Below are positions 34,675 to 64,000 of a stretch of DNA of 64,000 bases, one piece after another (position 1 is the first letter of the stretch; the number at the start of each line of letters is the position of its first letter). The stretch covers positions 1 to 64,000 of the forward strand of contig JANFNE010000020.1 in NCBI GenBank assembly GCA_024867545.1, given 5' to 3'. The notes below the pieces were generated by a model. That model was not told the origin of the DNA and did not search any database. It worked only from the letters and a program-made list of their open reading frames with translations. The stretch comes from Phytopythium helicoides (taxonomy: Eukaryota; Oomycota; Peronosporomycetes; Pythiales; Pythiaceae). The position numbers and the translations under genes are program-made.

Positions 34675-34756
34675 GTCAGTGTGCCCGAGCGGTCTAAGGG
34701 GGTAGACTCAAGTTCTACTGTGTTCGCACTCGCGGGTTCAAATCCCGCCGCTGACA
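34675..34756 (+). tRNA. tRNA-Leu(CAA), array copy 1
   Basis: Class II tRNA, 82 nt without CCA. Acceptor GTCAGTG pairs with CGCTGAC (one T-G wobble), discriminator A. The D-stem is CCC/GGG. The anticodon stem GTAGA/TCTAC holds loop CTCAAGT, anticodon CAA, which reads UUG. A 13-nt variable arm (TGTGTTCGCACTC) and T-arm GCGGG-TTCAAAT-CCCGC follow. B box GGTTCAAATCC is intact. The gene has no intron, unlike tRNA-Leu(CAA) of yeast, plants and animals. The 10-25 pair is C-G rather than the usual G-C. This first copy differs from the others in its AT-rich 5' flank. Followed by T9 and (GA)21. Confidence 0.95.
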
Positions 34757-34792
34757 CGTTCTTTGCACGCCACGCTTTCTCCCATAGGCCAG

Positions 34793-34797
34793 TTTTT
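34793..34797 (+). terminator. Candidate RNA polymerase III terminator (T5), copy 1; same place in every unit
   Basis: First run of four or more T on the sense strand, 36 nt after the tRNA 3' end. No T4 lies closer, so the precursor would carry a ~40-nt 3' trailer. The longer T9-12 tract ~240 bp further on could act as backup. Confidence 0.55.
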
Positions 34798-35250
34798 ATG
34801 TCCACATCGGTACACCAACATACTCCCACCAACTACTTCACACAACCACTCAACGATCGACCTCTCTCCCATCATCCGATGGAGCCGGCCATCATACAAC
34901 AAGTTCTCTTTTGCGCTCGAGATACCTTTTGTGATGGAGCGAAACGTGAACGGACGCTCTGCGTGGCAGCTGGCAGCTGGTAGTCACCATCACGTCATTC
35001 ATGGTTGGTTGAAAAGAGACAATCTTTTTTTTTAATGTTTTTTAATGTTTTTCTCTGTGAAAGCCCAAAGTGAGAATCCCGCGAGAGTGGTGTTTGGTAC
35101 GTTTGTGATTGTTGTATTTTTGGATGCAATCAAAAAGGAAATACGTCAGCAAGTAGACAAACAAACCACAATGGTTGGCTATCGAAAGACGAAACAAAAA
35201 GGAGAAGGAAGACCGAGAATAAAATGAGAGGAGGAGGAAACGAGAATGAA

Positions 35251-35299
<49 letters not shown>

Positions 35300-35433
35300 G
35301 CTTGTGATGCGAGTTGTTGTTGGTTTTGGTATGAAGATAGTATCCGTGTTGTGAGTGAAGTGAGAGTTGGGTCGTGATGAAAGTATGGTTGTTGTGTATG
35401 TGTAATTTAGTGTGTGGTTAGGGTTGTTTTGGC

Positions 35434-35515
35434 GTCAGTGTGCCCGAGCGGTCTAAGGGGGTAGACTCAAGTTCTACTGTGTTCGCACTCGCGGGTTCAA
35501 ATCCCGCCGCTGACA
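35434..35515 (+). tRNA. tRNA-Leu(CAA), array copy 2
   Basis: Same 82-nt gene as copy 1. First copy with the standard G/T-rich 5' flank. Followed by T10 and (GA)20; 758 bp to the next copy. Confidence 0.95.
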
Positions 35516-36010
35516 CGTTCTTTGCACGCCACGCTTTCTCCCATAGGCCAGTTTTTATGTCCACATCGGTACACCAACATACTCCCACCAACTACTTCAC
35601 ACAACCACTCAACGATCGACCTCTCTCCTATCATCCGATGGAGCCGGCCATCATACAACAAGTTCTCTTTTGCGCTCGAGATACCTTTTGTGATGGAGCG
35701 AAACGTGAACGGACGCTCTGCGTGGCAGCTGGCAGCTGGTAGTCACCATCACGTCATTCATGGTTGGTTGAAAAGAGACAATCTTTTTTTTTTAATGTTT
35801 TTTAATGTTTTTCTCTGTGAAAGCCCAAAGTGAGAATCCCGCGAGAGTGGTGTTTGGTACGTTTGTGATTGTTGTATTTTTGGATGCAATCAAAAAGGAA
35901 ATACGTCAGCAAGTAGACAAACAAACCACAATGGTTGGCTATCGAAAGACGAAACAAAAAGGAGAAGGAAGACCGAGAATAAAATGAGAGGAGGAGGAAA
36001 CGAGAATGAA

Positions 36011-36057
<47 letters not shown>

Positions 36058-36191
36058 GCTTGTGATGCGAGTTGTTGTTGGTTTTGGTATGAAGATAGTA
36101 TCCGTGTTGTGAGTGAAGTGAGAGTTGGGTCGTGATGAAAGTATGGTTGTTGTGTATGTGTAATTTAGTGTGTGGTTAGGGTTGTTTTGGC

Positions 36192-36273
36192 GTCAGTGTG
36201 CCCGAGCGGTCTAAGGGGGTAGACTCAAGTTCTACTGTGTTCGCACTCGCGGGTTCAAATCCCGCCGCTGACA
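36192..36273 (+). tRNA. tRNA-Leu(CAA), array copy 3
   Basis: Same 82-nt gene; followed by T10 and (GA)22; 762 bp to the next copy. Confidence 0.95.
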
Positions 36274-36768
36274 CGTTCTTTGCACGCCACGCTTTCTCCC
36301 ATAGGCCAGTTTTTATGTCCACATCGGTACACCAACATACTCCCACCAACTACTTCACACAACCACTCAACGATCGACCTCTCTCCTATCATCCGATGGA
36401 GCCGGCCATCATACAACAAGTTCTCTTTTGCGCTCGAGATACCTTTTGTGATGGAGCGAAACGTGAACGGACGCTCTGCGTGGCAGCTGGCAGCTGGTAG
36501 TCACCATCACGTCATTCATGGTTGGTTGAAAAGAGACAATCTTTTTTTTTTAATGTTTTTTAATGTTTTTCTCTGTGAAAGCCCAAAGTGAGAATCCCGC
36601 GAGAGTGGTGTTTGGTACGTTTGTGATTGTTGTATTTTTGGATGCAATCAAAAAGGAAATACGTCAGCAAGTAGACAAACAAACCACAATGGTTGGCTAT
36701 CGAAAGACGAAACAAAAAGGAGAAGGAAGACCGAGAATAAAATGAGAGGAGGAGGAAACGAGAATGAA

Positions 36769-36819
<51 letters not shown>

Positions 36820-36953
36820 GCTTGTGATGCGAGTTGTTGTTGGTTTTGGTATGAAGATAGTATCCGTGTTGTGAGTGAAGTGAGAGTTGGGTCGTGATGA
36901 AAGTATGGTTGTTGTGTATGTGTAATTTAGTGTGTGGTTAGGGTTGTTTTGGC

Positions 36954-37035
36954 GTCAGTGTGCCCGAGCGGTCTAAGGGGGTAGACTCAAGTTCTACTGT
37001 GTTCGCACTCGCGGGTTCAAATCCCGCCGCTGACA
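36954..37035 (+). tRNA. tRNA-Leu(CAA), array copy 4
   Basis: Same 82-nt gene; followed by T9 and (GA)20; 757 bp to the next copy. Confidence 0.95.
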
Positions 37036-37529
37036 CGTTCTTTGCACGCCACGCTTTCTCCCATAGGCCAGTTTTTATGTCCACATCGGTACACCAACAT
37101 ACTCCCACCAACTACTTCACACAACCACTCAACGATCGACCTCTCTCCTATCATCCGATGGAGCCGGCCATCATACAACAAGTTCTCTTTTGCGCTCGAG
37201 ATACCTTTTGTGATGGAGCGAAACGTGAACGGACGCTCTGCGTGGCAGCTGGCAGCTGGTAGTCACCATCACGTCATTCATGGTTGGTTGAAAAGAGACA
37301 ATCTTTTTTTTTAATGTTTTTTAATGTTTTTCTCTGTGAAAGCCCAAAGTGAGAATCCCGCGAGAGTGGTGTTTGGTACGTTTGTGATTGTTGTATTTTT
37401 GGATGCAATCAAAAAGGAAATACGTCAGCAAGTAGACAAACAAACCACAATGGTTGGCTATCGAAAGACGAAACAAAAAGGAGAAGGAAGACCGAGAATA
37501 AAATGAGAGGAGGAGGAAACGAGAATGAA

Positions 37530-37576
<47 letters not shown>

Positions 37577-37710
37577 GCTTGTGATGCGAGTTGTTGTTGG
37601 TTTTGGTATGAAGATAGTATCCGTGTTGTGAGTGAAGTGAGAGTTGGGTCGTGATGAAAGTATGGTTGTTGTGTATGTGTAATTTAGTGTGTGGTTAGGG
37701 TTGTTTTGGC

Positions 37711-37792
37711 GTCAGTGTGCCCGAGCGGTCTAAGGGGGTAGACTCAAGTTCTACTGTGTTCGCACTCGCGGGTTCAAATCCCGCCGCTGACA
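37711..37792 (+). tRNA. tRNA-Leu(CAA), array copy 5
   Basis: Same 82-nt gene; followed by T9 and (GA)20; 757 bp to the next copy. Confidence 0.95.
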
Positions 37793-38286
37793 CGTTCTTT
37801 GCACGCCACGCTTTCTCCCATAGGCCAGTTTTTATGTCCACATCGGTACACCAACATACTCCCACCAACTACTTCACACAACCACTCAACGATCGACCTC
37901 TCTCCTATCATCCGATGGAGCCGGCCATCATACAACAAGTTCTCTTTTGCGCTCGAGATACCTTTTGTGATGGAGCGAAACGTGAACGGACGCTCTGCGT
38001 GGCAGCTGGCAGCTGGTAGTCACCATCACGTCATTCATGGTTGGTTGAAAAGAGACAATCTTTTTTTTTAATGTTTTTTAATGTTTTTCTCTGTGAAAGC
38101 CCAAAGTGAGAATCCCGCGAGAGTGGTGTTTGGTACGTTTGTGATTGTTGTATTTTTGGATGCAATCAAAAAGGAAATACGTCAGCAAGTAGACAAACAA
38201 ACCACAATGGTTGGCTATCGAAAGACGAAACAAAAAGGAGAAGGAAGACCGAGAATAAAATGAGAGGAGGAGGAAACGAGAATGAA

Positions 38287-38333
<47 letters not shown>

Positions 38334-38467
38334 GCTTGTGATGCGAGTTGTTGTTGGTTTTGGTATGAAGATAGTATCCGTGTTGTGAGTGAAGTGAGAG
38401 TTGGGTCGTGATGAAAGTATGGTTGTTGTGTATGTGTAATTTAGTGTGTGGTTAGGGTTGTTTTGGC

Positions 38468-38549
38468 GTCAGTGTGCCCGAGCGGTCTAAGGGGGTAGAC
38501 TCAAGTTCTACTGTGTTCGCACTCGCGGGTTCAAATCCCGCCGCTGACA
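38468..38549 (+). tRNA. tRNA-Leu(CAA), array copy 6
   Basis: Same 82-nt gene; followed by T10 and (GA)24; 766 bp to the next copy. Confidence 0.95.
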
Positions 38550-39044
38550 CGTTCTTTGCACGCCACGCTTTCTCCCATAGGCCAGTTTTTATGTCCACAT
38601 CGGTACACCAACATACTCCCACCAACTACTTCACACAACCACTCAACGATCGACCTCTCTCCTATCATCCGATGGAGCCGGCCATCATACAACAAGTTCT
38701 CTTTTGCGCTCGAGATACCTTTTGTGATGGAGCGAAACGTGAACGGACGCTCTGCGTGGCAGCTGGCAGCTGGTAGTCACCATCACGTCATTCATGGTTG
38801 GTTGAAAAGAGACAATCTTTTTTTTTTAATGTTTTTTAATGTTTTTCTCTGTGAAAGCCCAAAGTGAGAATCCCGCGAGAGTGGTGTTTGGTACGTTTGT
38901 GATTGTTGTATTTTTGGATGCAATCAAAAAGGAAATACGTCAGCAAGTAGACAAACAAACCACAATGGTTGGCTATCGAAAGACGAAACAAAAAGGAGAA
39001 GGAAGACCGAGAATAAAATGAGAGGAGGAGGAAACGAGAATGAA

Positions 39045-39099
<55 letters not shown>

Positions 39100-39233
39100 G
39101 CTTGTGATGCGAGTTGTTGTTGGTTTTGGTATGAAGATAGTATCCGTGTTGTGAGTGAAGTGAGAGTTGGGTCGTGATGAAAGTATGGTTGTTGTGTATG
39201 TGTAATTTAGTGTGTGGTTAGGGTTGTTTTGGC

Positions 39234-39315
39234 GTCAGTGTGCCCGAGCGGTCTAAGGGGGTAGACTCAAGTTCTACTGTGTTCGCACTCGCGGGTTCAA
39301 ATCCCGCCGCTGACA
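39234..39315 (+). tRNA. tRNA-Leu(CAA), array copy 7
   Basis: Same 82-nt gene; followed by T9 and (GA)22; 761 bp to the next copy. Confidence 0.95.
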
Positions 39316-39809
39316 CGTTCTTTGCACGCCACGCTTTCTCCCATAGGCCAGTTTTTATGTCCACATCGGTACACCAACATACTCCCACCAACTACTTCAC
39401 ACAACCACTCAACGATCGACCTCTCTCCTATCATCCGATGGAGCCGGCCATCATACAACAAGTTCTCTTTTGCGCTCGAGATACCTTTTGTGATGGAGCG
39501 AAACGTGAACGGACGCTCTGCGTGGCAGCTGGCAGCTGGTAGTCACCATCACGTCATTCATGGTTGGTTGAAAAGAGACAATCTTTTTTTTTAATGTTTT
39601 TTAATGTTTTTCTCTGTGAAAGCCCAAAGTGAGAATCCCGCGAGAGTGGTGTTTGGTACGTTTGTGATTGTTGTATTTTTGGATGCAATCAAAAAGGAAA
39701 TACGTCAGCAAGTAGACAAACAAACCACAATGGTTGGCTATCGAAAGACGAAACAAAAAGGAGAAGGAAGACCGAGAATAAAATGAGAGGAGGAGGAAAC
39801 GAGAATGAA

Positions 39810-39860
<51 letters not shown>

Positions 39861-39994
39861 GCTTGTGATGCGAGTTGTTGTTGGTTTTGGTATGAAGATA
39901 GTATCCGTGTTGTGAGTGAAGTGAGAGTTGGGTCGTGATGAAAGTATGGTTGTTGTGTATGTGTAATTTAGTGTGTGGTTAGGGTTGTTTTGGC

Positions 39995-40076
39995 GTCAGT
40001 GTGCCCGAGCGGTCTAAGGGGGTAGACTCAAGTTCTACTGTGTTCGCACTCGCGGGTTCAAATCCCGCCGCTGACA
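39995..40076 (+). tRNA. tRNA-Leu(CAA), array copy 8
   Basis: Same 82-nt gene; followed by T10 and (GA)23; 764 bp to the next copy. Looks like an extra unit relative to the decamer pattern. Confidence 0.95.
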
Positions 40077-40571
40077 CGTTCTTTGCACGCCACGCTTTCT
40101 CCCATAGGCCAGTTTTTATGTCCACATCGGTACACCAACATACTCCCACCAACTACTTCACACAACCACTCAACGATCGACCTCTCTCCTATCATCCGAT
40201 GGAGCCGGCCATCATACAACAAGTTCTCTTTTGCGCTCGAGATACCTTTTGTGATGGAGCGAAACGTGAACGGACGCTCTGCGTGGCAGCTGGCAGCTGG
40301 TAGTCACCATCACGTCATTCATGGTTGGTTGAAAAGAGACAATCTTTTTTTTTTAATGTTTTTTAATGTTTTTCTCTGTGAAAGCCCAAAGTGAGAATCC
40401 CGCGAGAGTGGTGTTTGGTACGTTTGTGATTGTTGTATTTTTGGATGCAATCAAAAAGGAAATACGTCAGCAAGTAGACAAACAAACCACAATGGTTGGC
40501 TATCGAAAGACGAAACAAAAAGGAGAAGGAAGACCGAGAATAAAATGAGAGGAGGAGGAAACGAGAATGAA

Positions 40572-40624
<53 letters not shown>

Positions 40625-40758
40625 GCTTGTGATGCGAGTTGTTGTTGGTTTTGGTATGAAGATAGTATCCGTGTTGTGAGTGAAGTGAGAGTTGGGTCGT
40701 GATGAAAGTATGGTTGTTGTGTATGTGTAATTTAGTGTGTGGTTAGGGTTGTTTTGGC

Positions 40759-40840
40759 GTCAGTGTGCCCGAGCGGTCTAAGGGGGTAGACTCAAGTTCT
40801 ACTGTGTTCGCACTCGCGGGTTCAAATCCCGCCGCTGACA
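40759..40840 (+). tRNA. tRNA-Leu(CAA), array copy 9
   Basis: Same 82-nt gene; followed by T10 and the short (GA)9 tract that opens decamer block A; 736 bp to the next copy. Confidence 0.95.
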
Positions 40841-41494
40841 CGTTCTTTGCACGCCACGCTTTCTCCCATAGGCCAGTTTTTATGTCCACATCGGTACACC
40901 AACATACTCCCACCAACTACTTCACACAACCACTCAACGATCGACCTCTCTCCTATCATCCGATGGAGCCGGCCATCATACAACAAGTTCTCTTTTGCGC
41001 TCGAGATACCTTTTGTGATGGAGCGAAACGTGAACGGACGCTCTGCGTGGCAGCTGGCAGCTGGTAGTCACCATCACGTCATTCATGGTTGGTTGAAAAG
41101 AGACAATCTTTTTTTTTTAATGTTTTTTAATGTTTTTCTCTGTGAAAGCCCAAAGTGAGAATCCCGCGAGAGTGGTGTTTGGTACGTTTGTGATTGTTGT
41201 ATTTTTGGATGCAATCAAAAAGGAAATACGTCAGCAAGTAGACAAACAAACCACAATGGTTGGCTATCGAAAGACGAAACAAAAAGGAGAAGGAAGACCG
41301 AGAATAAAATGAGAGGAGGAGGAAACGAGAATGAAAGAAGAGAGAGAGAGAGAGAGAATGGCTTGTGATGCGAGTTGTTGTTGGTTTTGGTATGAAGATA
41401 GTATCCGTGTTGTGAGTGAAGTGAGAGTTGGGTCGTGATGAAAGTATGGTTGTTGTGTATGTGTAATTTAGTGTGTGGTTAGGGTTGTTTTGGC

Positions 41495-41576
41495 GTCAGT
41501 GTGCCCGAGCGGTCTAAGGGGGTAGACTCAAGTTCTACTGTGTTCGCACTCGCGGGTTCAAATCCCGCCGCTGACA
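41495..41576 (+). tRNA. tRNA-Leu(CAA), array copy 10
   Basis: Same 82-nt gene; followed by T10 and (GA)17; 752 bp to the next copy. Confidence 0.95.
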
Positions 41577-42071
41577 CGTTCTTTGCACGCCACGCTTTCT
41601 CCCATAGGCCAGTTTTTATGTCCACATCGGTACACCAACATACTCCCACCAACTACTTCACACAACCACTCAACGATCGACCTCTCTCCTATCATCCGAT
41701 GGAGCCGGCCATCATACAACAAGTTCTCTTTTGCGCTCGAGATACCTTTTGTGATGGAGCGAAACGTGAACGGACGCTCTGCGTGGCAGCTGGCAGCTGG
41801 TAGTCACCATCACGTCATTCATGGTTGGTTGAAAAGAGACAATCTTTTTTTTTTAATGTTTTTTAATGTTTTTCTCTGTGAAAGCCCAAAGTGAGAATCC
41901 CGCGAGAGTGGTGTTTGGTACGTTTGTGATTGTTGTATTTTTGGATGCAATCAAAAAGGAAATACGTCAGCAAGTAGACAAACAAACCACAATGGTTGGC
42001 TATCGAAAGACGAAACAAAAAGGAGAAGGAAGACCGAGAATAAAATGAGAGGAGGAGGAAACGAGAATGAA

Positions 42072-42112
<41 letters not shown>

Positions 42113-42246
42113 GCTTGTGATGCGAGTTGTTGTTGGTTTTGGTATGAAGATAGTATCCGTGTTGTGAGTGAAGTGAGAGTTGGGTCGTGATGAAAGTATG
42201 GTTGTTGTGTATGTGTAATTTAGTGTGTGGTTAGGGTTGTTTTGGC

Positions 42247-42328
42247 GTCAGTGTGCCCGAGCGGTCTAAGGGGGTAGACTCAAGTTCTACTGTGTTCGCA
42301 CTCGCGGGTTCAAATCCCGCCGCTGACA
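42247..42328 (+). tRNA. tRNA-Leu(CAA), array copy 11
   Basis: Same 82-nt gene; followed by T9 and (GA)17; 751 bp to the next copy. Confidence 0.95.
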
Positions 42329-42822
42329 CGTTCTTTGCACGCCACGCTTTCTCCCATAGGCCAGTTTTTATGTCCACATCGGTACACCAACATACTCCCA
42401 CCAACTACTTCACACAACCACTCAACGATCGACCTCTCTCCTATCATCCGATGGAGCCGGCCATCATACAACAAGTTCTCTTTTGCGCTCGAGATACCTT
42501 TTGTGATGGAGCGAAACGTGAACGGACGCTCTGCGTGGCAGCTGGCAGCTGGTAGTCACCATCACGTCATTCATGGTTGGTTGAAAAGAGACAATCTTTT
42601 TTTTTAATGTTTTTTAATGTTTTTCTCTGTGAAAGCCCAAAGTGAGAATCCCGCGAGAGTGGTGTTTGGTACGTTTGTGATTGTTGTATTTTTGGATGCA
42701 ATCAAAAAGGAAATACGTCAGCAAGTAGACAAACAAACCACAATGGTTGGCTATCGAAAGACGAAACAAAAAGGAGAAGGAAGACCGAGAATAAAATGAG
42801 AGGAGGAGGAAACGAGAATGAA

Positions 42823-42863
<41 letters not shown>

Positions 42864-42997
42864 GCTTGTGATGCGAGTTGTTGTTGGTTTTGGTATGAAG
42901 ATAGTATCCGTGTTGTGAGTGAAGTGAGAGTTGGGTCGTGATGAAAGTATGGTTGTTGTGTATGTGTAATTTAGTGTGTGGTTAGGGTTGTTTTGGC

Positions 42998-43079
42998 GTC
43001 AGTGTGCCCGAGCGGTCTAAGGGGGTAGACTCAAGTTCTACTGTGTTCGCACTCGCGGGTTCAAATCCCGCCGCTGACA
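42998..43079 (+). tRNA. tRNA-Leu(CAA), array copy 12
   Basis: Same 82-nt gene; followed by T9 and (GA)22; 761 bp to the next copy. Confidence 0.95.
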
Positions 43080-43573
43080 CGTTCTTTGCACGCCACGCTT
43101 TCTCCCATAGGCCAGTTTTTATGTCCACATCGGTACACCAACATACTCCCACCAACTACTTCACACAACCACTCAACGATCGACCTCTCTCCTATCATCC
43201 GATGGAGCCGGCCATCATACAACAAGTTCTCTTTTGCGCTCGAGATACCTTTTGTGATGGAGCGAAACGTGAACGGACGCTCTGCGTGGCAGCTGGCAGC
43301 TGGTAGTCACCATCACGTCATTCATGGTTGGTTGAAAAGAGACAATCTTTTTTTTTAATGTTTTTTAATGTTTTTCTCTGTGAAAGCCCAAAGTGAGAAT
43401 CCCGCGAGAGTGGTGTTTGGTACGTTTGTGATTGTTGTATTTTTGGATGCAATCAAAAAGGAAATACGTCAGCAAGTAGACAAACAAACCACAATGGTTG
43501 GCTATCGAAAGACGAAACAAAAAGGAGAAGGAAGACCGAGAATAAAATGAGAGGAGGAGGAAACGAGAATGAA

Positions 43574-43624
<51 letters not shown>

Positions 43625-43758
43625 GCTTGTGATGCGAGTTGTTGTTGGTTTTGGTATGAAGATAGTATCCGTGTTGTGAGTGAAGTGAGAGTTGGGTCGT
43701 GATGAAAGTATGGTTGTTGTGTATGTGTAATTTAGTGTGTGGTTAGGGTTGTTTTGGC

Positions 43759-43840
43759 GTCAGTGTGCCCGAGCGGTCTAAGGGGGTAGACTCAAGTTCT
43801 ACTGTGTTCGCACTCGCGGGTTCAAATCCCGCCGCTGACA
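43759..43840 (+). tRNA. tRNA-Leu(CAA), array copy 13
   Basis: Same 82-nt gene; followed by T9 and (GA)20; 757 bp to the next copy. Confidence 0.95.
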
Positions 43841-44334
43841 CGTTCTTTGCACGCCACGCTTTCTCCCATAGGCCAGTTTTTATGTCCACATCGGTACACC
43901 AACATACTCCCACCAACTACTTCACACAACCACTCAACGATCGACCTCTCTCCTATCATCCGATGGAGCCGGCCATCATACAACAAGTTCTCTTTTGCGC
44001 TCGAGATACCTTTTGTGATGGAGCGAAACGTGAACGGACGCTCTGCGTGGCAGCTGGCAGCTGGTAGTCACCATCACGTCATTCATGGTTGGTTGAAAAG
44101 AGACAATCTTTTTTTTTAATGTTTTTTAATGTTTTTCTCTGTGAAAGCCCAAAGTGAGAATCCCGCGAGAGTGGTGTTTGGTACGTTTGTGATTGTTGTA
44201 TTTTTGGATGCAATCAAAAAGGAAATACGTCAGCAAGTAGACAAACAAACCACAATGGTTGGCTATCGAAAGACGAAACAAAAAGGAGAAGGAAGACCGA
44301 GAATAAAATGAGAGGAGGAGGAAACGAGAATGAA

Positions 44335-44381
<47 letters not shown>

Positions 44382-44515
44382 GCTTGTGATGCGAGTTGTT
44401 GTTGGTTTTGGTATGAAGATAGTATCCGTGTTGTGAGTGAAGTGAGAGTTGGGTCGTGATGAAAGTATGGTTGTTGTGTATGTGTAATTTAGTGTGTGGT
44501 TAGGGTTGTTTTGGC

Positions 44516-44597
44516 GTCAGTGTGCCCGAGCGGTCTAAGGGGGTAGACTCAAGTTCTACTGTGTTCGCACTCGCGGGTTCAAATCCCGCCGCTGACA
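44516..44597 (+). tRNA. tRNA-Leu(CAA), array copy 14
   Basis: Same 82-nt gene; followed by T9 and (GA)21; 759 bp to the next copy. Confidence 0.95.
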
Positions 44598-45091
44598 CGT
44601 TCTTTGCACGCCACGCTTTCTCCCATAGGCCAGTTTTTATGTCCACATCGGTACACCAACATACTCCCACCAACTACTTCACACAACCACTCAACGATCG
44701 ACCTCTCTCCTATCATCCGATGGAGCCGGCCATCATACAACAAGTTCTCTTTTGCGCTCGAGATACCTTTTGTGATGGAGCGAAACGTGAACGGACGCTC
44801 TGCGTGGCAGCTGGCAGCTGGTAGTCACCATCACGTCATTCATGGTTGGTTGAAAAGAGACAATCTTTTTTTTTAATGTTTTTTAATGTTTTTCTCTGTG
44901 AAAGCCCAAAGTGAGAATCCCGCGAGAGTGGTGTTTGGTACGTTTGTGATTGTTGTATTTTTGGATGCAATCAAAAAGGAAATACGTCAGCAAGTAGACA
45001 AACAAACCACAATGGTTGGCTATCGAAAGACGAAACAAAAAGGAGAAGGAAGACCGAGAATAAAATGAGAGGAGGAGGAAACGAGAATGAA

Positions 45092-45140
<49 letters not shown>

Positions 45141-45274
45141 GCTTGTGATGCGAGTTGTTGTTGGTTTTGGTATGAAGATAGTATCCGTGTTGTGAGTGAA
45201 GTGAGAGTTGGGTCGTGATGAAAGTATGGTTGTTGTGTATGTGTAATTTAGTGTGTGGTTAGGGTTGTTTTGGC

Positions 45275-45356
45275 GTCAGTGTGCCCGAGCGGTCTAAGGG
45301 GGTAGACTCAAGTTCTACTGTGTTCGCACTCGCGGGTTCAAATCCCGCCGCTGACA
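45275..45356 (+). tRNA. tRNA-Leu(CAA), array copy 15
   Basis: Same 82-nt gene; followed by T9 and (GA)21; 759 bp to the next copy. Confidence 0.95.
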
Positions 45357-52723: not shown

Positions 52724-52857
52724 GCTTGTGATGCGAGTTGTTGTTGGTTTTGGTATGAAGATAGTATCCGTGTTGTGAGTGAAGTGAGAGTTGGGTCGTG
52801 ATGAAAGTATGGTTGTTGTGTATGTGTAATTTAGTGTGTGGTTAGGGTTGTTTTGGC

Positions 52858-52939
52858 GTCAGTGTGCCCGAGCGGTCTAAGGGGGTAGACTCAAGTTCTA
52901 CTGTGTTCGCACTCGCGGGTTCAAATCCCGCCGCTGACA
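52858..52939 (+). tRNA. tRNA-Leu(CAA), array copy 25
   Basis: Same 82-nt gene; followed by T10 and (GA)19; 756 bp to the next copy. Confidence 0.95.
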
Positions 52940-53434
52940 CGTTCTTTGCACGCCACGCTTTCTCCCATAGGCCAGTTTTTATGTCCACATCGGTACACCA
53001 ACATACTCCCACCAACTACTTCACACAACCACTCAACGATCGACCTCTCTCCTATCATCCGATGGAGCCGGCCATCATACAACAAGTTCTCTTTTGCGCT
53101 CGAGATACCTTTTGTGATGGAGCGAAACGTGAACGGACGCTCTGCGTGGCAGCTGGCAGCTGGTAGTCACCATCACGTCATTCATGGTTGGTTGAAAAGA
53201 GACAATCTTTTTTTTTTAATGTTTTTTAATGTTTTTCTCTGTGAAAGCCCAAAGTGAGAATCCCGCGAGAGTGGTGTTTGGTACGTTTGTGATTGTTGTA
53301 TTTTTGGATGCAATCAAAAAGGAAATACGTCAGCAAGTAGACAAACAAACCACAATGGTTGGCTATCGAAAGACGAAACAAAAAGGAGAAGGAAGACCGA
53401 GAATAAAATGAGAGGAGGAGGAAACGAGAATGAA

Positions 53435-53479
<45 letters not shown>

Positions 53480-53613
53480 GCTTGTGATGCGAGTTGTTGT
53501 TGGTTTTGGTATGAAGATAGTATCCGTGTTGTGAGTGAAGTGAGAGTTGGGTCGTGATGAAAGTATGGTTGTTGTGTATGTGTAATTTAGTGTGTGGTTA
53601 GGGTTGTTTTGGC

Positions 53614-53695
53614 GTCAGTGTGCCCGAGCGGTCTAAGGGGGTAGACTCAAGTTCTACTGTGTTCGCACTCGCGGGTTCAAATCCCGCCGCTGACA
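53614..53695 (+). tRNA. tRNA-Leu(CAA), array copy 26
   Basis: Same 82-nt gene; followed by T10 and (GA)19; 756 bp to the next copy. Confidence 0.95.
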
Positions 53696-54190
53696 CGTTC
53701 TTTGCACGCCACGCTTTCTCCCATAGGCCAGTTTTTATGTCCACATCGGTACACCAACATACTCCCACCAACTACTTCACACAACCACTCAACGATCGAC
53801 CTCTCTCCTATCATCCGATGGAGCCGGCCATCATACAACAAGTTCTCTTTTGCGCTCGAGATACCTTTTGTGATGGAGCGAAACGTGAACGGACGCTCTG
53901 CGTGGCAGCTGGCAGCTGGTAGTCACCATCACGTCATTCATGGTTGGTTGAAAAGAGACAATCTTTTTTTTTTAATGTTTTTTAATGTTTTTCTCTGTGA
54001 AAGCCCAAAGTGAGAATCCCGCGAGAGTGGTGTTTGGTACGTTTGTGATTGTTGTATTTTTGGATGCAATCAAAAAGGAAATACGTCAGCAAGTAGACAA
54101 ACAAACCACAATGGTTGGCTATCGAAAGACGAAACAAAAAGGAGAAGGAAGACCGAGAATAAAATGAGAGGAGGAGGAAACGAGAATGAA

Positions 54191-54235
<45 letters not shown>

Positions 54236-54369
54236 GCTTGTGATGCGAGTTGTTGTTGGTTTTGGTATGAAGATAGTATCCGTGTTGTGAGTGAAGTGAG
54301 AGTTGGGTCGTGATGAAAGTATGGTTGTTGTGTATGTGTAATTTAGTGTGTGGTTAGGGTTGTTTTGGC

Positions 54370-54451
54370 GTCAGTGTGCCCGAGCGGTCTAAGGGGGTAG
54401 ACTCAAGTTCTACTGTGTTCGCACTCGCGGGTTCAAATCCCGCCGCTGACA
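54370..54451 (+). tRNA. tRNA-Leu(CAA), array copy 27
   Basis: Same 82-nt gene; followed by T10 and (GA)26; 770 bp to the next copy. Confidence 0.95.
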
Positions 54452-54946
54452 CGTTCTTTGCACGCCACGCTTTCTCCCATAGGCCAGTTTTTATGTCCAC
54501 ATCGGTACACCAACATACTCCCACCAACTACTTCACACAACCACTCAACGATCGACCTCTCTCCTATCATCCGATGGAGCCGGCCATCATACAACAAGTT
54601 CTCTTTTGCGCTCGAGATACCTTTTGTGATGGAGCGAAACGTGAACGGACGCTCTGCGTGGCAGCTGGCAGCTGGTAGTCACCATCACGTCATTCATGGT
54701 TGGTTGAAAAGAGACAATCTTTTTTTTTTAATGTTTTTTAATGTTTTTCTCTGTGAAAGCCCAAAGTGAGAATCCCGCGAGAGTGGTGTTTGGTACGTTT
54801 GTGATTGTTGTATTTTTGGATGCAATCAAAAAGGAAATACGTCAGCAAGTAGACAAACAAACCACAATGGTTGGCTATCGAAAGACGAAACAAAAAGGAG
54901 AAGGAAGACCGAGAATAAAATGAGAGGAGGAGGAAACGAGAATGAA

Positions 54947-55005
<59 letters not shown>

Positions 55006-55139
55006 GCTTGTGATGCGAGTTGTTGTTGGTTTTGGTATGAAGATAGTATCCGTGTTGTGAGTGAAGTGAGAGTTGGGTCGTGATGAAAGTATGGTTGTTG
55101 TGTATGTGTAATTTAGTGTGTGGTTAGGGTTGTTTTGGC

Positions 55140-55221
55140 GTCAGTGTGCCCGAGCGGTCTAAGGGGGTAGACTCAAGTTCTACTGTGTTCGCACTCGCGG
55201 GTTCAAATCCCGCCGCTGACA
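55140..55221 (+). tRNA. tRNA-Leu(CAA), array copy 28
   Basis: Same 82-nt gene; followed by T9 and (GA)21; 759 bp to the next copy. Confidence 0.95.
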
Positions 55222-55715
55222 CGTTCTTTGCACGCCACGCTTTCTCCCATAGGCCAGTTTTTATGTCCACATCGGTACACCAACATACTCCCACCAACTA
55301 CTTCACACAACCACTCAACGATCGACCTCTCTCCTATCATCCGATGGAGCCGGCCATCATACAACAAGTTCTCTTTTGCGCTCGAGATACCTTTTGTGAT
55401 GGAGCGAAACGTGAACGGACGCTCTGCGTGGCAGCTGGCAGCTGGTAGTCACCATCACGTCATTCATGGTTGGTTGAAAAGAGACAATCTTTTTTTTTAA
55501 TGTTTTTTAATGTTTTTCTCTGTGAAAGCCCAAAGTGAGAATCCCGCGAGAGTGGTGTTTGGTACGTTTGTGATTGTTGTATTTTTGGATGCAATCAAAA
55601 AGGAAATACGTCAGCAAGTAGACAAACAAACCACAATGGTTGGCTATCGAAAGACGAAACAAAAAGGAGAAGGAAGACCGAGAATAAAATGAGAGGAGGA
55701 GGAAACGAGAATGAA

Positions 55716-55764
<49 letters not shown>

Positions 55765-55898
55765 GCTTGTGATGCGAGTTGTTGTTGGTTTTGGTATGAA
55801 GATAGTATCCGTGTTGTGAGTGAAGTGAGAGTTGGGTCGTGATGAAAGTATGGTTGTTGTGTATGTGTAATTTAGTGTGTGGTTAGGGTTGTTTTGGC

Positions 55899-55980
55899 GT
55901 CAGTGTGCCCGAGCGGTCTAAGGGGGTAGACTCAAGTTCTACTGTGTTCGCACTCGCGGGTTCAAATCCCGCCGCTGACA
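55899..55980 (+). tRNA. tRNA-Leu(CAA), array copy 29
   Basis: Same 82-nt gene; followed by T10 and the (GA)9 tract that opens decamer block C; 736 bp to the next copy. Confidence 0.95.
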
Positions 55981-56634
55981 CGTTCTTTGCACGCCACGCT
56001 TTCTCCCATAGGCCAGTTTTTATGTCCACATCGGTACACCAACATACTCCCACCAACTACTTCACACAACCACTCAACGATCGACCTCTCTCCTATCATC
56101 CGATGGAGCCGGCCATCATACAACAAGTTCTCTTTTGCGCTCGAGATACCTTTTGTGATGGAGCGAAACGTGAACGGACGCTCTGCGTGGCAGCTGGCAG
56201 CTGGTAGTCACCATCACGTCATTCATGGTTGGTTGAAAAGAGACAATCTTTTTTTTTTAATGTTTTTTAATGTTTTTCTCTGTGAAAGCCCAAAGTGAGA
56301 ATCCCGCGAGAGTGGTGTTTGGTACGTTTGTGATTGTTGTATTTTTGGATGCAATCAAAAAGGAAATACGTCAGCAAGTAGACAAACAAACCACAATGGT
56401 TGGCTATCGAAAGACGAAACAAAAAGGAGAAGGAAGACCGAGAATAAAATGAGAGGAGGAGGAAACGAGAATGAAAGAAGAGAGAGAGAGAGAGAGAATG
56501 GCTTGTGATGCGAGTTGTTGTTGGTTTTGGTATGAAGATAGTATCCGTGTTGTGAGTGAAGTGAGAGTTGGGTCGTGATGAAAGTATGGTTGTTGTGTAT
56601 GTGTAATTTAGTGTGTGGTTAGGGTTGTTTTGGC

Positions 56635-56716
56635 GTCAGTGTGCCCGAGCGGTCTAAGGGGGTAGACTCAAGTTCTACTGTGTTCGCACTCGCGGGTTCA
56701 AATCCCGCCGCTGACA
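56635..56716 (+). tRNA. tRNA-Leu(CAA), array copy 30
   Basis: Same 82-nt gene; followed by T9 and (GA)17; 751 bp to the next copy. Confidence 0.95.
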
Positions 56717-57210
56717 CGTTCTTTGCACGCCACGCTTTCTCCCATAGGCCAGTTTTTATGTCCACATCGGTACACCAACATACTCCCACCAACTACTTCA
56801 CACAACCACTCAACGATCGACCTCTCTCCTATCATCCGATGGAGCCGGCCATCATACAACAAGTTCTCTTTTGCGCTCGAGATACCTTTTGTGATGGAGC
56901 GAAACGTGAACGGACGCTCTGCGTGGCAGCTGGCAGCTGGTAGTCACCATCACGTCATTCATGGTTGGTTGAAAAGAGACAATCTTTTTTTTTAATGTTT
57001 TTTAATGTTTTTCTCTGTGAAAGCCCAAAGTGAGAATCCCGCGAGAGTGGTGTTTGGTACGTTTGTGATTGTTGTATTTTTGGATGCAATCAAAAAGGAA
57101 ATACGTCAGCAAGTAGACAAACAAACCACAATGGTTGGCTATCGAAAGACGAAACAAAAAGGAGAAGGAAGACCGAGAATAAAATGAGAGGAGGAGGAAA
57201 CGAGAATGAA

Positions 57211-57251
<41 letters not shown>

Positions 57252-57385
57252 GCTTGTGATGCGAGTTGTTGTTGGTTTTGGTATGAAGATAGTATCCGTG
57301 TTGTGAGTGAAGTGAGAGTTGGGTCGTGATGAAAGTATGGTTGTTGTGTATGTGTAATTTAGTGTGTGGTTAGGGTTGTTTTGGC

Positions 57386-57467
57386 GTCAGTGTGCCCGAG
57401 CGGTCTAAGGGGGTAGACTCAAGTTCTACTGTGTTCGCACTCGCGGGTTCAAATCCCGCCGCTGACA
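57386..57467 (+). tRNA. tRNA-Leu(CAA), array copy 31
   Basis: Same 82-nt gene; followed by T10 and (GA)17; 752 bp to the next copy. Confidence 0.95.
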
Positions 57468-57962
57468 CGTTCTTTGCACGCCACGCTTTCTCCCATAGGC
57501 CAGTTTTTATGTCCACATCGGTACACCAACATACTCCCACCAACTACTTCACACAACCACTCAACGATCGACCTCTCTCCTATCATCCGATGGAGCCGGC
57601 CATCATACAACAAGTTCTCTTTTGCGCTCGAGATACCTTTTGTGATGGAGCGAAACGTGAACGGACGCTCTGCGTGGCAGCTGGCAGCTGGTAGTCACCA
57701 TCACGTCATTCATGGTTGGTTGAAAAGAGACAATCTTTTTTTTTTAATGTTTTTTAATGTTTTTCTCTGTGAAAGCCCAAAGTGAGAATCCCGCGAGAGT
57801 GGTGTTTGGTACGTTTGTGATTGTTGTATTTTTGGATGCAATCAAAAAGGAAATACGTCAGCAAGTAGACAAACAAACCACAATGGTTGGCTATCGAAAG
57901 ACGAAACAAAAAGGAGAAGGAAGACCGAGAATAAAATGAGAGGAGGAGGAAACGAGAATGAA

Positions 57963-58003
<41 letters not shown>

Positions 58004-58137
58004 GCTTGTGATGCGAGTTGTTGTTGGTTTTGGTATGAAGATAGTATCCGTGTTGTGAGTGAAGTGAGAGTTGGGTCGTGATGAAAGTATGGTTGTTGTG
58101 TATGTGTAATTTAGTGTGTGGTTAGGGTTGTTTTGGC

Positions 58138-58219
58138 GTCAGTGTGCCCGAGCGGTCTAAGGGGGTAGACTCAAGTTCTACTGTGTTCGCACTCGCGGGT
58201 TCAAATCCCGCCGCTGACA
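58138..58219 (+). tRNA. tRNA-Leu(CAA), array copy 32
   Basis: Same 82-nt gene; followed by T9 and (GA)20; 757 bp to the next copy. Confidence 0.95.
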
Positions 58220-58713
58220 CGTTCTTTGCACGCCACGCTTTCTCCCATAGGCCAGTTTTTATGTCCACATCGGTACACCAACATACTCCCACCAACTACT
58301 TCACACAACCACTCAACGATCGACCTCTCTCCTATCATCCGATGGAGCCGGCCATCATACAACAAGTTCTCTTTTGCGCTCGAGATACCTTTTGTGATGG
58401 AGCGAAACGTGAACGGACGCTCTGCGTGGCAGCTGGCAGCTGGTAGTCACCATCACGTCATTCATGGTTGGTTGAAAAGAGACAATCTTTTTTTTTAATG
58501 TTTTTTAATGTTTTTCTCTGTGAAAGCCCAAAGTGAGAATCCCGCGAGAGTGGTGTTTGGTACGTTTGTGATTGTTGTATTTTTGGATGCAATCAAAAAG
58601 GAAATACGTCAGCAAGTAGACAAACAAACCACAATGGTTGGCTATCGAAAGACGAAACAAAAAGGAGAAGGAAGACCGAGAATAAAATGAGAGGAGGAGG
58701 AAACGAGAATGAA

Positions 58714-58760
<47 letters not shown>

Positions 58761-58894
58761 GCTTGTGATGCGAGTTGTTGTTGGTTTTGGTATGAAGATA
58801 GTATCCGTGTTGTGAGTGAAGTGAGAGTTGGGTCGTGATGAAAGTATGGTTGTTGTGTATGTGTAATTTAGTGTGTGGTTAGGGTTGTTTTGGC

Positions 58895-58976
58895 GTCAGT
58901 GTGCCCGAGCGGTCTAAGGGGGTAGACTCAAGTTCTACTGTGTTCGCACTCGCGGGTTCAAATCCCGCCGCTGACA
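58895..58976 (+). tRNA. tRNA-Leu(CAA), array copy 33
   Basis: Same 82-nt gene; followed by T9 and (GA)20; 757 bp to the next copy. Confidence 0.95.
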
Positions 58977-59470
58977 CGTTCTTTGCACGCCACGCTTTCT
59001 CCCATAGGCCAGTTTTTATGTCCACATCGGTACACCAACATACTCCCACCAACTACTTCACACAACCACTCAACGATCGACCTCTCTCCTATCATCCGAT
59101 GGAGCCGGCCATCATACAACAAGTTCTCTTTTGCGCTCGAGATACCTTTTGTGATGGAGCGAAACGTGAACGGACGCTCTGCGTGGCAGCTGGCAGCTGG
59201 TAGTCACCATCACGTCATTCATGGTTGGTTGAAAAGAGACAATCTTTTTTTTTAATGTTTTTTAATGTTTTTCTCTGTGAAAGCCCAAAGTGAGAATCCC
59301 GCGAGAGTGGTGTTTGGTACGTTTGTGATTGTTGTATTTTTGGATGCAATCAAAAAGGAAATACGTCAGCAAGTAGACAAACAAACCACAATGGTTGGCT
59401 ATCGAAAGACGAAACAAAAAGGAGAAGGAAGACCGAGAATAAAATGAGAGGAGGAGGAAACGAGAATGAA

Positions 59471-59517
<47 letters not shown>

Positions 59518-59651
59518 GCTTGTGATGCGAGTTGTTGTTGGTTTTGGTATGAAGATAGTATCCGTGTTGTGAGTGAAGTGAGAGTTGGGTCGTGATGAAA
59601 GTATGGTTGTTGTGTATGTGTAATTTAGTGTGTGGTTAGGGTTGTTTTGGC

Positions 59652-59733
59652 GTCAGTGTGCCCGAGCGGTCTAAGGGGGTAGACTCAAGTTCTACTGTGT
59701 TCGCACTCGCGGGTTCAAATCCCGCCGCTGACA
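59652..59733 (+). tRNA. tRNA-Leu(CAA), array copy 34
   Basis: Same 82-nt gene; followed by T9 and (GA)24; 765 bp to the next copy. Confidence 0.95.
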
Positions 59734-60227
59734 CGTTCTTTGCACGCCACGCTTTCTCCCATAGGCCAGTTTTTATGTCCACATCGGTACACCAACATAC
59801 TCCCACCAACTACTTCACACAACCACTCAACGATCGACCTCTCTCCTATCATCCGATGGAGCCGGCCATCATACAACAAGTTCTCTTTTGCGCTCGAGAT
59901 ACCTTTTGTGATGGAGCGAAACGTGAACGGACGCTCTGCGTGGCAGCTGGCAGCTGGTAGTCACCATCACGTCATTCATGGTTGGTTGAAAAGAGACAAT
60001 CTTTTTTTTTAATGTTTTTTAATGTTTTTCTCTGTGAAAGCCCAAAGTGAGAATCCCGCGAGAGTGGTGTTTGGTACGTTTGTGATTGTTGTATTTTTGG
60101 ATGCAATCAAAAAGGAAATACGTCAGCAAGTAGACAAACAAACCACAATGGTTGGCTATCGAAAGACGAAACAAAAAGGAGAAGGAAGACCGAGAATAAA
60201 ATGAGAGGAGGAGGAAACGAGAATGAA

Positions 60228-60282
<55 letters not shown>

Positions 60283-60416
60283 GCTTGTGATGCGAGTTGT
60301 TGTTGGTTTTGGTATGAAGATAGTATCCGTGTTGTGAGTGAAGTGAGAGTTGGGTCGTGATGAAAGTATGGTTGTTGTGTATGTGTAATTTAGTGTGTGG
60401 TTAGGGTTGTTTTGGC

Positions 60417-60498
60417 GTCAGTGTGCCCGAGCGGTCTAAGGGGGTAGACTCAAGTTCTACTGTGTTCGCACTCGCGGGTTCAAATCCCGCCGCTGACA
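60417..60498 (+). tRNA. tRNA-Leu(CAA), array copy 35
   Basis: Same 82-nt gene; followed by T11 and (GA)20 preceded by one extra A, unique in the array; 760 bp to the next copy. Confidence 0.95.
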
Positions 60499-60992
60499 CG
60501 TTCTTTGCACGCCACGCTTTCTCCCATAGGCCAGTTTTTATGTCCACATCGGTACACCAACATACTCCCACCAACTACTTCACACAACCACTCAACGATC
60601 GACCTCTCTCCTATCATCCGATGGAGCCGGCCATCATACAACAAGTTCTCTTTTGCGCTCGAGATACCTTTTGTGATGGAGCGAAACGTGAACGGACGCT
60701 CTGCGTGGCAGCTGGCAGCTGGTAGTCACCATCACGTCATTCATGGTTGGTTGAAAAGAGACAATCTTTTTTTTTTTAATGTTTTTTAATGTTTTTCTCT
60801 GTGAAAGCCCAAAGTGAGAATCCCGCGAGAGTGGTGTTTGGTACGTTTGTGATTGTTGTATTTTTGGATGCAATCAAAAAGGAAATACGTCAGCAAGTAG
60901 ACAAACAAACCACAATGGTTGGCTATCGAAAGACGAAACAAAAAGGAGAAGGAAGACCGAGAATAAAATGAGAGGAGGAGGAAACGAGAATG

Positions 60993-61042
<50 letters not shown>

Positions 61043-61176
61043 GCTTGTGATGCGAGTTGTTGTTGGTTTTGGTATGAAGATAGTATCCGTGTTGTGAGTG
61101 AAGTGAGAGTTGGGTCGTGATGAAAGTATGGTTGTTGTGTATGTGTAATTTAGTGTGTGGTTAGGGTTGTTTTGGC

Positions 61177-61258
61177 GTCAGTGTGCCCGAGCGGTCTAAG
61201 GGGGTAGACTCAAGTTCTACTGTGTTCGCACTCGCGGGTTCAAATCCCGCCGCTGACA
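61177..61258 (+). tRNA. tRNA-Leu(CAA), array copy 36
   Basis: Same 82-nt gene; followed by a private C-to-T near 61475, the longest T-run (T12) and (GA)20; 760 bp to the next copy. Confidence 0.95.
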
Positions 61259-61755
61259 CGTTCTTTGCACGCCACGCTTTCTCCCATAGGCCAGTTTTTA
61301 TGTCCACATCGGTACACCAACATACTCCCACCAACTACTTCACACAACCACTCAACGATCGACCTCTCTCCTATCATCCGATGGAGCCGGCCATCATACA
61401 ACAAGTTCTCTTTTGCGCTCGAGATACCTTTTGTGATGGAGCGAAACGTGAACGGACGCTCTGCGTGGCAGCTGGTAGCTGGTAGTCACCATCACGTCAT
61501 TCATGGTTGGTTGAAAAGAGACAATCTTTTTTTTTTTTAATGTTTTTTAATGTTTTTCTCTGTGAAAGCCCAAAGTGAGAATCCCGCGAGAGTGGTGTTT
61601 GGTACGTTTGTGATTGTTGTATTTTTGGATGCAATCAAAAAGGAAATACGTCAGCAAGTAGACAAACAAACCACAATGGTTGGCTATCGAAAGACGAAAC
61701 AAAAAGGAGAAGGAAGACCGAGAATAAAATGAGAGGAGGAGGAAACGAGAATGAA

Positions 61756-61802
<47 letters not shown>

Positions 61803-61936
61803 GCTTGTGATGCGAGTTGTTGTTGGTTTTGGTATGAAGATAGTATCCGTGTTGTGAGTGAAGTGAGAGTTGGGTCGTGATGAAAGTATGGTTGTTGTGT
61901 ATGTGTAATTTAGTGTGTGGTTAGGGTTGTTTTGGC

Positions 61937-62018
61937 GTCAGTGTGCCCGAGCGGTCTAAGGGGGTAGACTCAAGTTCTACTGTGTTCGCACTCGCGGGTT
62001 CAAATCCCGCCGCTGACA
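61937..62018 (+). tRNA. tRNA-Leu(CAA), array copy 37
   Basis: Same 82-nt gene; followed by T9 and the longest microsatellite, (GA)27; 771 bp to the next copy. Confidence 0.95.
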
Positions 62019-62512
62019 CGTTCTTTGCACGCCACGCTTTCTCCCATAGGCCAGTTTTTATGTCCACATCGGTACACCAACATACTCCCACCAACTACTT
62101 CACACAACCACTCAACGATCGACCTCTCTCCTATCATCCGATGGAGCCGGCCATCATACAACAAGTTCTCTTTTGCGCTCGAGATACCTTTTGTGATGGA
62201 GCGAAACGTGAACGGACGCTCTGCGTGGCAGCTGGCAGCTGGTAGTCACCATCACGTCATTCATGGTTGGTTGAAAAGAGACAATCTTTTTTTTTAATGT
62301 TTTTTAATGTTTTTCTCTGTGAAAGCCCAAAGTGAGAATCCCGCGAGAGTGGTGTTTGGTACGTTTGTGATTGTTGTATTTTTGGATGCAATCAAAAAGG
62401 AAATACGTCAGCAAGTAGACAAACAAACCACAATGGTTGGCTATCGAAAGACGAAACAAAAAGGAGAAGGAAGACCGAGAATAAAATGAGAGGAGGAGGA
62501 AACGAGAATGAA

Positions 62513-62573
<61 letters not shown>

Positions 62574-62707
62574 GCTTGTGATGCGAGTTGTTGTTGGTTT
62601 TGGTATGAAGATAGTATCCGTGTTGTGAGTGAAGTGAGAGTTGGGTCGTGATGAAAGTATGGTTGTTGTGTATGTGTAATTTAGTGTGTGGTTAGGGTTG
62701 TTTTGGC

Positions 62708-62789
62708 GTCAGTGTGCCCGAGCGGTCTAAGGGGGTAGACTCAAGTTCTACTGTGTTCGCACTCGCGGGTTCAAATCCCGCCGCTGACA
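62708..62789 (+). tRNA. tRNA-Leu(CAA), array copy 38
   Basis: Same 82-nt gene; followed by T10 and (GA)20; 758 bp to the next copy. Confidence 0.95.
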
Positions 62790-63284
62790 CGTTCTTTGCA
62801 CGCCACGCTTTCTCCCATAGGCCAGTTTTTATGTCCACATCGGTACACCAACATACTCCCACCAACTACTTCACACAACCACTCAACGATCGACCTCTCT
62901 CCTATCATCCGATGGAGCCGGCCATCATACAACAAGTTCTCTTTTGCGCTCGAGATACCTTTTGTGATGGAGCGAAACGTGAACGGACGCTCTGCGTGGC
63001 AGCTGGCAGCTGGTAGTCACCATCACGTCATTCATGGTTGGTTGAAAAGAGACAATCTTTTTTTTTTAATGTTTTTTAATGTTTTTCTCTGTGAAAGCCC
63101 AAAGTGAGAATCCCGCGAGAGTGGTGTTTGGTACGTTTGTGATTGTTGTATTTTTGGATGCAATCAAAAAGGAAATACGTCAGCAAGTAGACAAACAAAC
63201 CACAATGGTTGGCTATCGAAAGACGAAACAAAAAGGAGAAGGAAGACCGAGAATAAAATGAGAGGAGGAGGAAACGAGAATGAA

Positions 63285-63331
<47 letters not shown>

Positions 63332-63465
63332 GCTTGTGATGCGAGTTGTTGTTGGTTTTGGTATGAAGATAGTATCCGTGTTGTGAGTGAAGTGAGAGTT
63401 GGGTCGTGATGAAAGTATGGTTGTTGTGTATGTGTAATTTAGTGTGTGGTTAGGGTTGTTTTGGC

Positions 63466-63547
63466 GTCAGTGTGCCCGAGCGGTCTAAGGGGGTAGACTC
63501 AAGTTCTACTGTGTTCGCACTCGCGGGTTCAAATCCCGCCGCTGACA
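63466..63547 (+). tRNA. tRNA-Leu(CAA), array copy 39
   Basis: Same 82-nt gene; followed by T10. The window ends before its GA tract, so the array continues beyond the right edge. Confidence 0.95.
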
Positions 63548-64000
63548 CGTTCTTTGCACGCCACGCTTTCTCCCATAGGCCAGTTTTTATGTCCACATCG
63601 GTACACCAACATACTCCCACCAACTACTTCACACAACCACTCAACGATCGACCTCTCTCCTATCATCCGATGGAGCCGGCCATCATACAACAAGTTCTCT
63701 TTTGCGCTCGAGATACCTTTTGTGATGGAGCGAAACGTGAACGGACGCTCTGCGTGGCAGCTGGCAGCTGGTAGTCACCATCACGTCATTCATGGTTGGT
63801 TGAAAAGAGACAATCTTTTTTTTTTAATGTTTTTTAATGTTTTTCTCTGTGAAAGCCCAAAGTGAGAATCCCGCGAGAGTGGTGTTTGGTACGTTTGTGA
63901 TTGTTGTATTTTTGGATGCAATCAAAAAGGAAATACGTCAGCAAGTAGACAAACAAACCACAATGGTTGGCTATCGAAAGACGAAACAAAAAGGAGAAGG

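Follow-up and report, generated by a model that had tools for sequence, protein, structure and literature searches.

The window analysed here comprises positions 1-64,000 of contig 14 (C14, 1.27 Mb) of an oomycete genome assembly of 49.06 Mb in 100 contigs, and contains a tandem array of transfer RNA (tRNA) genes for a single leucine isoacceptor, tRNA-Leu(CAA). The array is a further member of a kind of tandem tRNA array that has already been published for oomycetes and is ordinary as a single locus; its origin and its uniformity are very probably the work of unequal exchange, with selection favouring it as a source of tRNA. The base composition that it shares with other arrays upstream of the tRNA genes is possibly a new lead and worth a second look.

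The tRNA-Leu(CAA) array of contig 14

ARAGORN called 39 tRNA-Leu(CAA) genes in the window, from 34675-34757 through to 63466-63548, every one on the + strand, and all 39 have one common 83-nt sequence, each scoring 52.1 bits against Rfam RF00005 (cut-off 29). A further 40 kb of contig 14 beyond the window was also analysed, and there the array reaches 45 tRNA-Leu(CAA) genes, all identical, the last of which lies at 68043-68125. The tandem arrangement of these genes is confirmed as real and chance is not an issue. The earlier note on this DNA, made from its letters, had described 39 head-to-tail units on one strand, each with one complete gene of the same single isoacceptor and a (GA)n tract in its spacer, in an array that runs off the window, and all of this stands; its unit length of ~757 bp was also a fair figure, as the 44 units of the whole array range from 736 to 772 bp.

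All 44 spacers contain a tract of uninterrupted AG/GA that is 19-55 nt long and, at another place, a run of 9-12 T, and once these two runs are set aside 41 of the 44 units are letter-for-letter identical. The private changes are confined to units 1, 35 and 36 and the variant units are thus grouped, the first being the edge of the array and the other two adjacent to one another. The left border of the array is the first tRNA-Leu(CAA) gene itself, without the usual spacer upstream, and no homology to the array unit was found to the left of that gene beyond a 14-nt chance match. At the right end, ~68.8 kb into the contig, there is one extra full spacer and then a 24-nt stretch that resembles the 5' end of the tRNA, matching it at 17 of 24 positions, after which the sequence is unrelated.

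An alternative is an error of assembly, by which the true array would be far shorter or far longer than the 45 units found: other tRNA arrays in this assembly stand at the starts or ends of contigs (C21, C28, C30, C33 and C40) and assemblies of Phytophthora infestans are reported to differ by about one quarter in tRNA gene number (PMC9584435). Such an error is nevertheless improbable here, as other sequence flanks the array on both sides within contig 14, the units can be told apart by their GA and T lengths and their private changes, and in the P. infestans account copy numbers agreed with read depth (PMC9584435).

Genes and spacers in paired arrays

The exact 15-base anticodon arm of tRNA-Leu(CAA) has 54 matches in the 49-Mb assembly, 45 in the C14 array and nine on contig 40 (C40), where they form a second Leu(CAA) array near the contig end; outside these two arrays the assembly yielded no Leu(CAA) gene that has this arm. 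With contigs rather than chromosomes compared, 45 of the 54 copies therefore sit in one array. Between the two arrays the gene is identical at 83 of 83 positions and the spacer at 557 of 657 aligned letters, and two further pairs can be set beside them: the Ala(TGC) arrays of C20 and C30 (gene 74/74, spacer 362/529) and the Leu(AAG) arrays of C33 and C61 (gene 83/83, spacer 450/520), where all spacer identities are bins of the alignment summed by hand. The 25 nt directly upstream of the gene are also well kept, at 24, 21 and 24 of 25 in the three pairs in that order, and at the position of the C14 GA run repeated 4-base units are found in C40. The C40 array furthermore reverses near the contig end, with unit matches on opposite strands side by side (C40:78583-79363), and this turn-round could be a genuine inversion or an artefact of fold-back.

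These three pairs allow the evolution of the gene to be separated from that of the spacer. It would seem unlikely that a gene remained unchanged at such spacer divergence unless there was selection on the tRNA, and because the tRNA-Leu(CAA) sequence is the same in two arrays with differing spacers, a role of the array as a tRNA supply, which the earlier note had proposed, is likely. Each unit consists of a complete tRNA-Leu(CAA) gene that carries an internal promoter of its own and is followed, 36 nt downstream, by a T run, and for this reason each copy could in principle be transcribed by RNA polymerase III (Pol III) alone. Unequal exchange and gene conversion among the units would account for copy number and uniformity, with exchange spreading one version through each array, whilst the length of the GA tract would be changed by slippage; selection would preserve the tRNA together with the sequence next to it, and the remaining spacer would drift between arrays. 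We infer unequal exchange, transcription and the supply of tRNA for UUG codons from the sequence.

Some observations weigh against this account. UUG makes up 51 of 408 leucine codons in seven open reading frames (ORFs), which is a weak fit to 54 copies of the Leu(CAA) gene. Of 20 arrayed genes, each examined in one representative copy, four, namely Arg(TCT), Gln(TTG) and the abutting Ala(AGC) and His(GTG), lack a T run of at least four within 100 nt downstream, so that the description of each unit as a standard Pol III gene does not apply uniformly. Finally, when the GA and T lengths of the C14 array are taken together as exact pairs there is no excess at lag 10 (0.06), and their highest value, 0.19 at lag 1, was attained in 5% of shuffles. 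GA length alone does show a 10-unit period (r 0.64 at lag 10, a value reached at any lag from 1 to 24 in 0.8% of 2000 shuffles) that is mainly due to a 19-35-35 triplet at units 9-11, 19-21 and 29-31. With caution, we read this GA-length period as an old block duplication blurred by slippage; assembly error could have the same effect.

A different proposal is that the array is mainly a chromatin element, in which dense B boxes load TFIIIC and the locus, beside transposon-rich DNA, serves as a boundary, as a site of clustering in the nucleus or as a barrier to replication forks, with tRNA output being secondary. The left flank of the array is transposon-like, the authors of the P. infestans account raised a possible role of arrays in nuclear or chromatin organisation (PMC9584435) and a human tRNA repeat at 1q23.3 has been implicated as a boundary element (PMC4041453). 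However, the C14 array is one of at least 17 identified in various places in this genome, and what is most strongly conserved between arrays is the tRNA itself, which transcription alone would explain; we therefore regard a mainly chromatin role as unlikely. It is just as doubtful that the copies are mostly silent and have been spread by recombination without benefit to the tRNA supply: the authors of the Entamoeba work hold that many of the copies in arrays are possibly inactive (PMC2652664) and a tRNA cluster of Arabidopsis is silenced in most tissues (PMC12308677), but the identity of the gene in diverged arrays and the lack of any other Leu(CAA) gene with this anticodon arm argue that at least some copies are needed.

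Upstream flanks, other arrays and neighbouring genes

The arrayed tRNA genes of this genome share an upstream flank of ~100 nt that is extremely rich in G and T on the sense strand. With the abutting His gene of the Ala-His unit left out of the representatives, 19 of 19 had a G+T content of 0.73-0.90 in the 100 nt upstream, compared with a maximum of 0.70 and a 99th percentile of 0.62 in a background of 2712 overlapping 100-nt windows from both strands of positions 1-34000 of the window, which is one region of one contig. The one dispersed gene examined, a tRNA-Leu(TAG) gene, has an upstream G+T content of 0.59. The 19 genes are not fully independent, as six of them form the three related array pairs (C14/C40, C20/C30 and C33/C61). 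In the downstream flanks C+T is above the 95th percentile in 14 of the 19.

Between paired arrays, 24 of 60 differences in the 150 upstream columns are between G and T, against 23 of 277 elsewhere, an excess that cannot tell mutation from selection because any G+T-rich stretch would give it. One possible explanation, which we put forward tentatively and hold to be less than probable, is that the shared flank is either a scar of transcription-linked base damage, left on the exposed strand by heavy Pol III traffic and spread by homogenisation of the arrays, or an upstream element used by the oomycete Pol III machinery. A mutational origin is conceivable since small RNA genes are reported targets of cytidine deaminases in yeast (PMC4359381). 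Should either hold true, the arrays would serve as natural archives of Pol III activity. A limited literature search, which is a thin basis for absence, found no report of a G+T-rich flank in oomycete tRNA genes.

From a reading of parts of the listed places at least 17 tRNA arrays were identified, covering 17 isoacceptors, and 14 of the 17 have one gene per unit (Table 1). That the contig 14 array might be unique in the genome is rejected by the 16 others, and because of them the locus is not special. The listed array places total roughly 0.5 Mb of the 49 Mb when summed by hand, or at least ~1% of the genome. Across the assembly a loose B-box pattern has 2145 matches, some of them on contigs of organellar look, compared with 272 for the reversed pattern; a first pass for Rfam gave 3472 candidates, of which 63 were scored, all 63 above the cut-off. 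ARAGORN called two tRNA genes among 31 hand-picked isolated B-box matches, and when Rfam was run on those two one passed, the tRNA-Leu(TAG) gene on contig C22. Judging from this sample, most nuclear tRNA genes of this oomycete appear to be arrayed. Four B-box matches 4.5 kb apart on C1 were considered as tRNA genes and rejected.

A number of other features were observed in passing. An inverted pair of B boxes with equal spacing is found on two contigs (C22:783848/784855 and C39:412540/413547), and the stretch C22:783701-784000 from this pair is the dispersed tRNA-Leu(TAG) gene. In each unit of the C25 array (C25:260701-262700) there are zero bases between tRNA-Ala(AGC) and tRNA-His(GTG), an abutment that suggests a two-tRNA precursor. 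Three of the 15 genes called in the Leu(CAG) array at C94:1-10000 have no clear anticodon, in contrast to the uniform Leu(CAA) array, and these are either decayed copies or the result of sequencing error. Contigs C89, C91 and C92 carry mixed clusters of tRNA genes that are repeated in both orientations on several contigs, and look like copies of an organelle genome with inverted repeats.

Table 1. Features of the window and tRNA arrays identified in the assembly (positions without a contig name are those of the window)
Feature	Position	Strand	Basis
tRNA-Leu(CAA) tandem array, 39 genes in window (45 in contig, to 68125)	34675..64000	+	ARAGORN, sequence
First tRNA-Leu(CAA) gene	34675..34757	+	ARAGORN
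B-box-like sequence of first gene, which we take to be the internal Pol III promoter element	34735..34745	+	read from sequence
T5 run, candidate Pol III terminator, 36 nt past first gene	34793..34797	+	sequence
AG microsatellite of first spacer, one of 44 in whole array	35254..35296	+	sequence
G+T-rich 100-nt flank upstream of third gene (G+T 0.76)	36092..36191	+	base composition
ORF with MULE transposase domain, left flank	28256..28909	+	ORF and domain scan
ORF with Cas12f1-like TNB domain (TnpB/Fanzor-like), left flank	29385..30470	+	ORF and domain scan
Dispersed repeat of left flank, relatives on C27, C26 and C24	33000..33948		sequence comparison
Thr(CGT)-Ser(GCT)-Trp(CCA) trimer array	C4
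Ile(TAT) array, separate from trimer	C4
Arg(TCT) array	C10
Gln(TTG)-Gln(CTG) dimer array	C11
Leu(CAA) array	C14
Lys(TTT) array, separate from Leu(CAA)	C14
Ala(TGC) arrays	C20 and C30
Lys(CTT) array	C21
Ala(AGC)-His(GTG) dimer array, genes directly abutting	C25
Leu(AAG) arrays	C33 and C61
Leu(CAG) arrays	C37 and C94
Leu(CAA) array	C40
Ile(AAT) array	C46
Thr(TGT) array	C57
Evenly spaced B-box runs	C28, C34, C42, C59		B-box spacing alone

The last ordinary gene to the left of the array is an asparaginase-type ORF that ends at 26196, ~8.5 kb away, and to the right ORFs of at least 250 aa start ~5.5 kb beyond the array. The earlier note's mention of neighbouring transposon-rich DNA is borne out for the left flank, which is transposon-like in its MULE and TNB domains and in a repeat related to sequence on three other contigs. 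The MULE transposase ORF and the Cas12f1-like TNB ORF are adjacent (28256-30470), as in a transposon with a TnpB/Fanzor-like nuclease. That a transposon ends right at the left edge of the array was considered and rejected: a search of positions 1-34674 of the window for reverse complements of the 9, 10, 11 and 12 nt that directly precede the first gene found none, which gives no sign of a clean insertion. Over longer ranges the left flank gave a single inverted match, of ~21 nt with an E of 0.47.

Elsewhere in the window a ubiquitin-activating enzyme is encoded at 10334-13399, the best species-named matches of which are from Globisporangium polare (85%), Phytophthora nicotianae (83%), Phytophthora oleae (82%) and Pythium oligandrum (80%), with four further database entries nearer still at 86-93%. 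These protein matches agree with the earlier note in placing the host among the oomycetes, and put it near the Pythium/Globisporangium/Phytophthora group.

Comparison with known tRNA arrays

Tandem tRNA genes have been described from a number of eukaryotes. The human repeat at 1q23.3 is likewise a tandem repeat with tRNA genes, and its copy number is variable, however its units are of 7.3 kb and bind CTCF, and it is there that a boundary role has been studied (PMC4041453). The Ser/Tyr cluster of Arabidopsis resembles the C14 array in that tandem tRNA genes touch repeat-rich or heterochromatic DNA, and differs in having two isoacceptor types that are silenced in most tissues (PMC12308677). In Entamoeba almost all tRNA genes are reported to be arrayed, with few dispersed, and the units are uniform within an isolate (PMC2652664). 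As here, short tandem repeats lie between the arrayed genes, although those of Entamoeba are complex, in contrast to the simple GA run of C14 and the run of 4-base units of C40. Furthermore the arrays of Entamoeba occupy more than 10% of the genome, compared with at least ~1% here, and have units of up to five tRNA genes, some with 5S RNA, whereas one-gene units predominate among the 17 arrays identified here (PMC2652664).

The closest likeness is to Phytophthora infestans, and the claim of the earlier note that no oomycete equivalent had been described does not hold, as the arrays of that species have been published and include a monomeric tRNA-Leu(AAG) array with near-identical units (PMC9584435). 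According to this account, which is based on a chromosome-scale assembly, ~64% of tRNA genes are in tandem arrays of one gene; the copy numbers are backed by read depth and growth by unequal crossing-over was proposed (PMC9584435). The monomeric arrays have few variants, which are grouped and often near one edge, most copies of an isoacceptor are on one chromosome, and arrays on different chromosomes have diverged (PMC9584435). The C14 array is similarly composed of head-to-tail repeats of one tRNA gene, 45 in the same orientation, its units are near-identical with the variants grouped, and arrays of the same isoacceptor diverge, here in the spacers of C14 and C40 with the gene unchanged. The two genomes belong to different species and the one analysed here is smaller, and whilst a microsatellite in the unit and a G+T-rich flank are both present here, the passages on tRNA arrays in the P. 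infestans account mention neither (PMC9584435).

Dimeric and trimeric units are also found in both, those here being the Gln-Gln units of C11, the Ala-His units of C25 and the Thr-Ser-Trp units of C4, and those of P. infestans comprising, among others, Gln(CTG)/Gln(TTG) dimers and a Thr(CGT)-Trp(CCA)-Ser(GCT) trimer (PMC9584435). The C14 array and its companions bring a further oomycete genome, of smaller size, under the pattern published for P. infestans, and the shared Thr/Trp/Ser trimer and Gln dimer suggest that such arrays are older than the split of these oomycete lineages.

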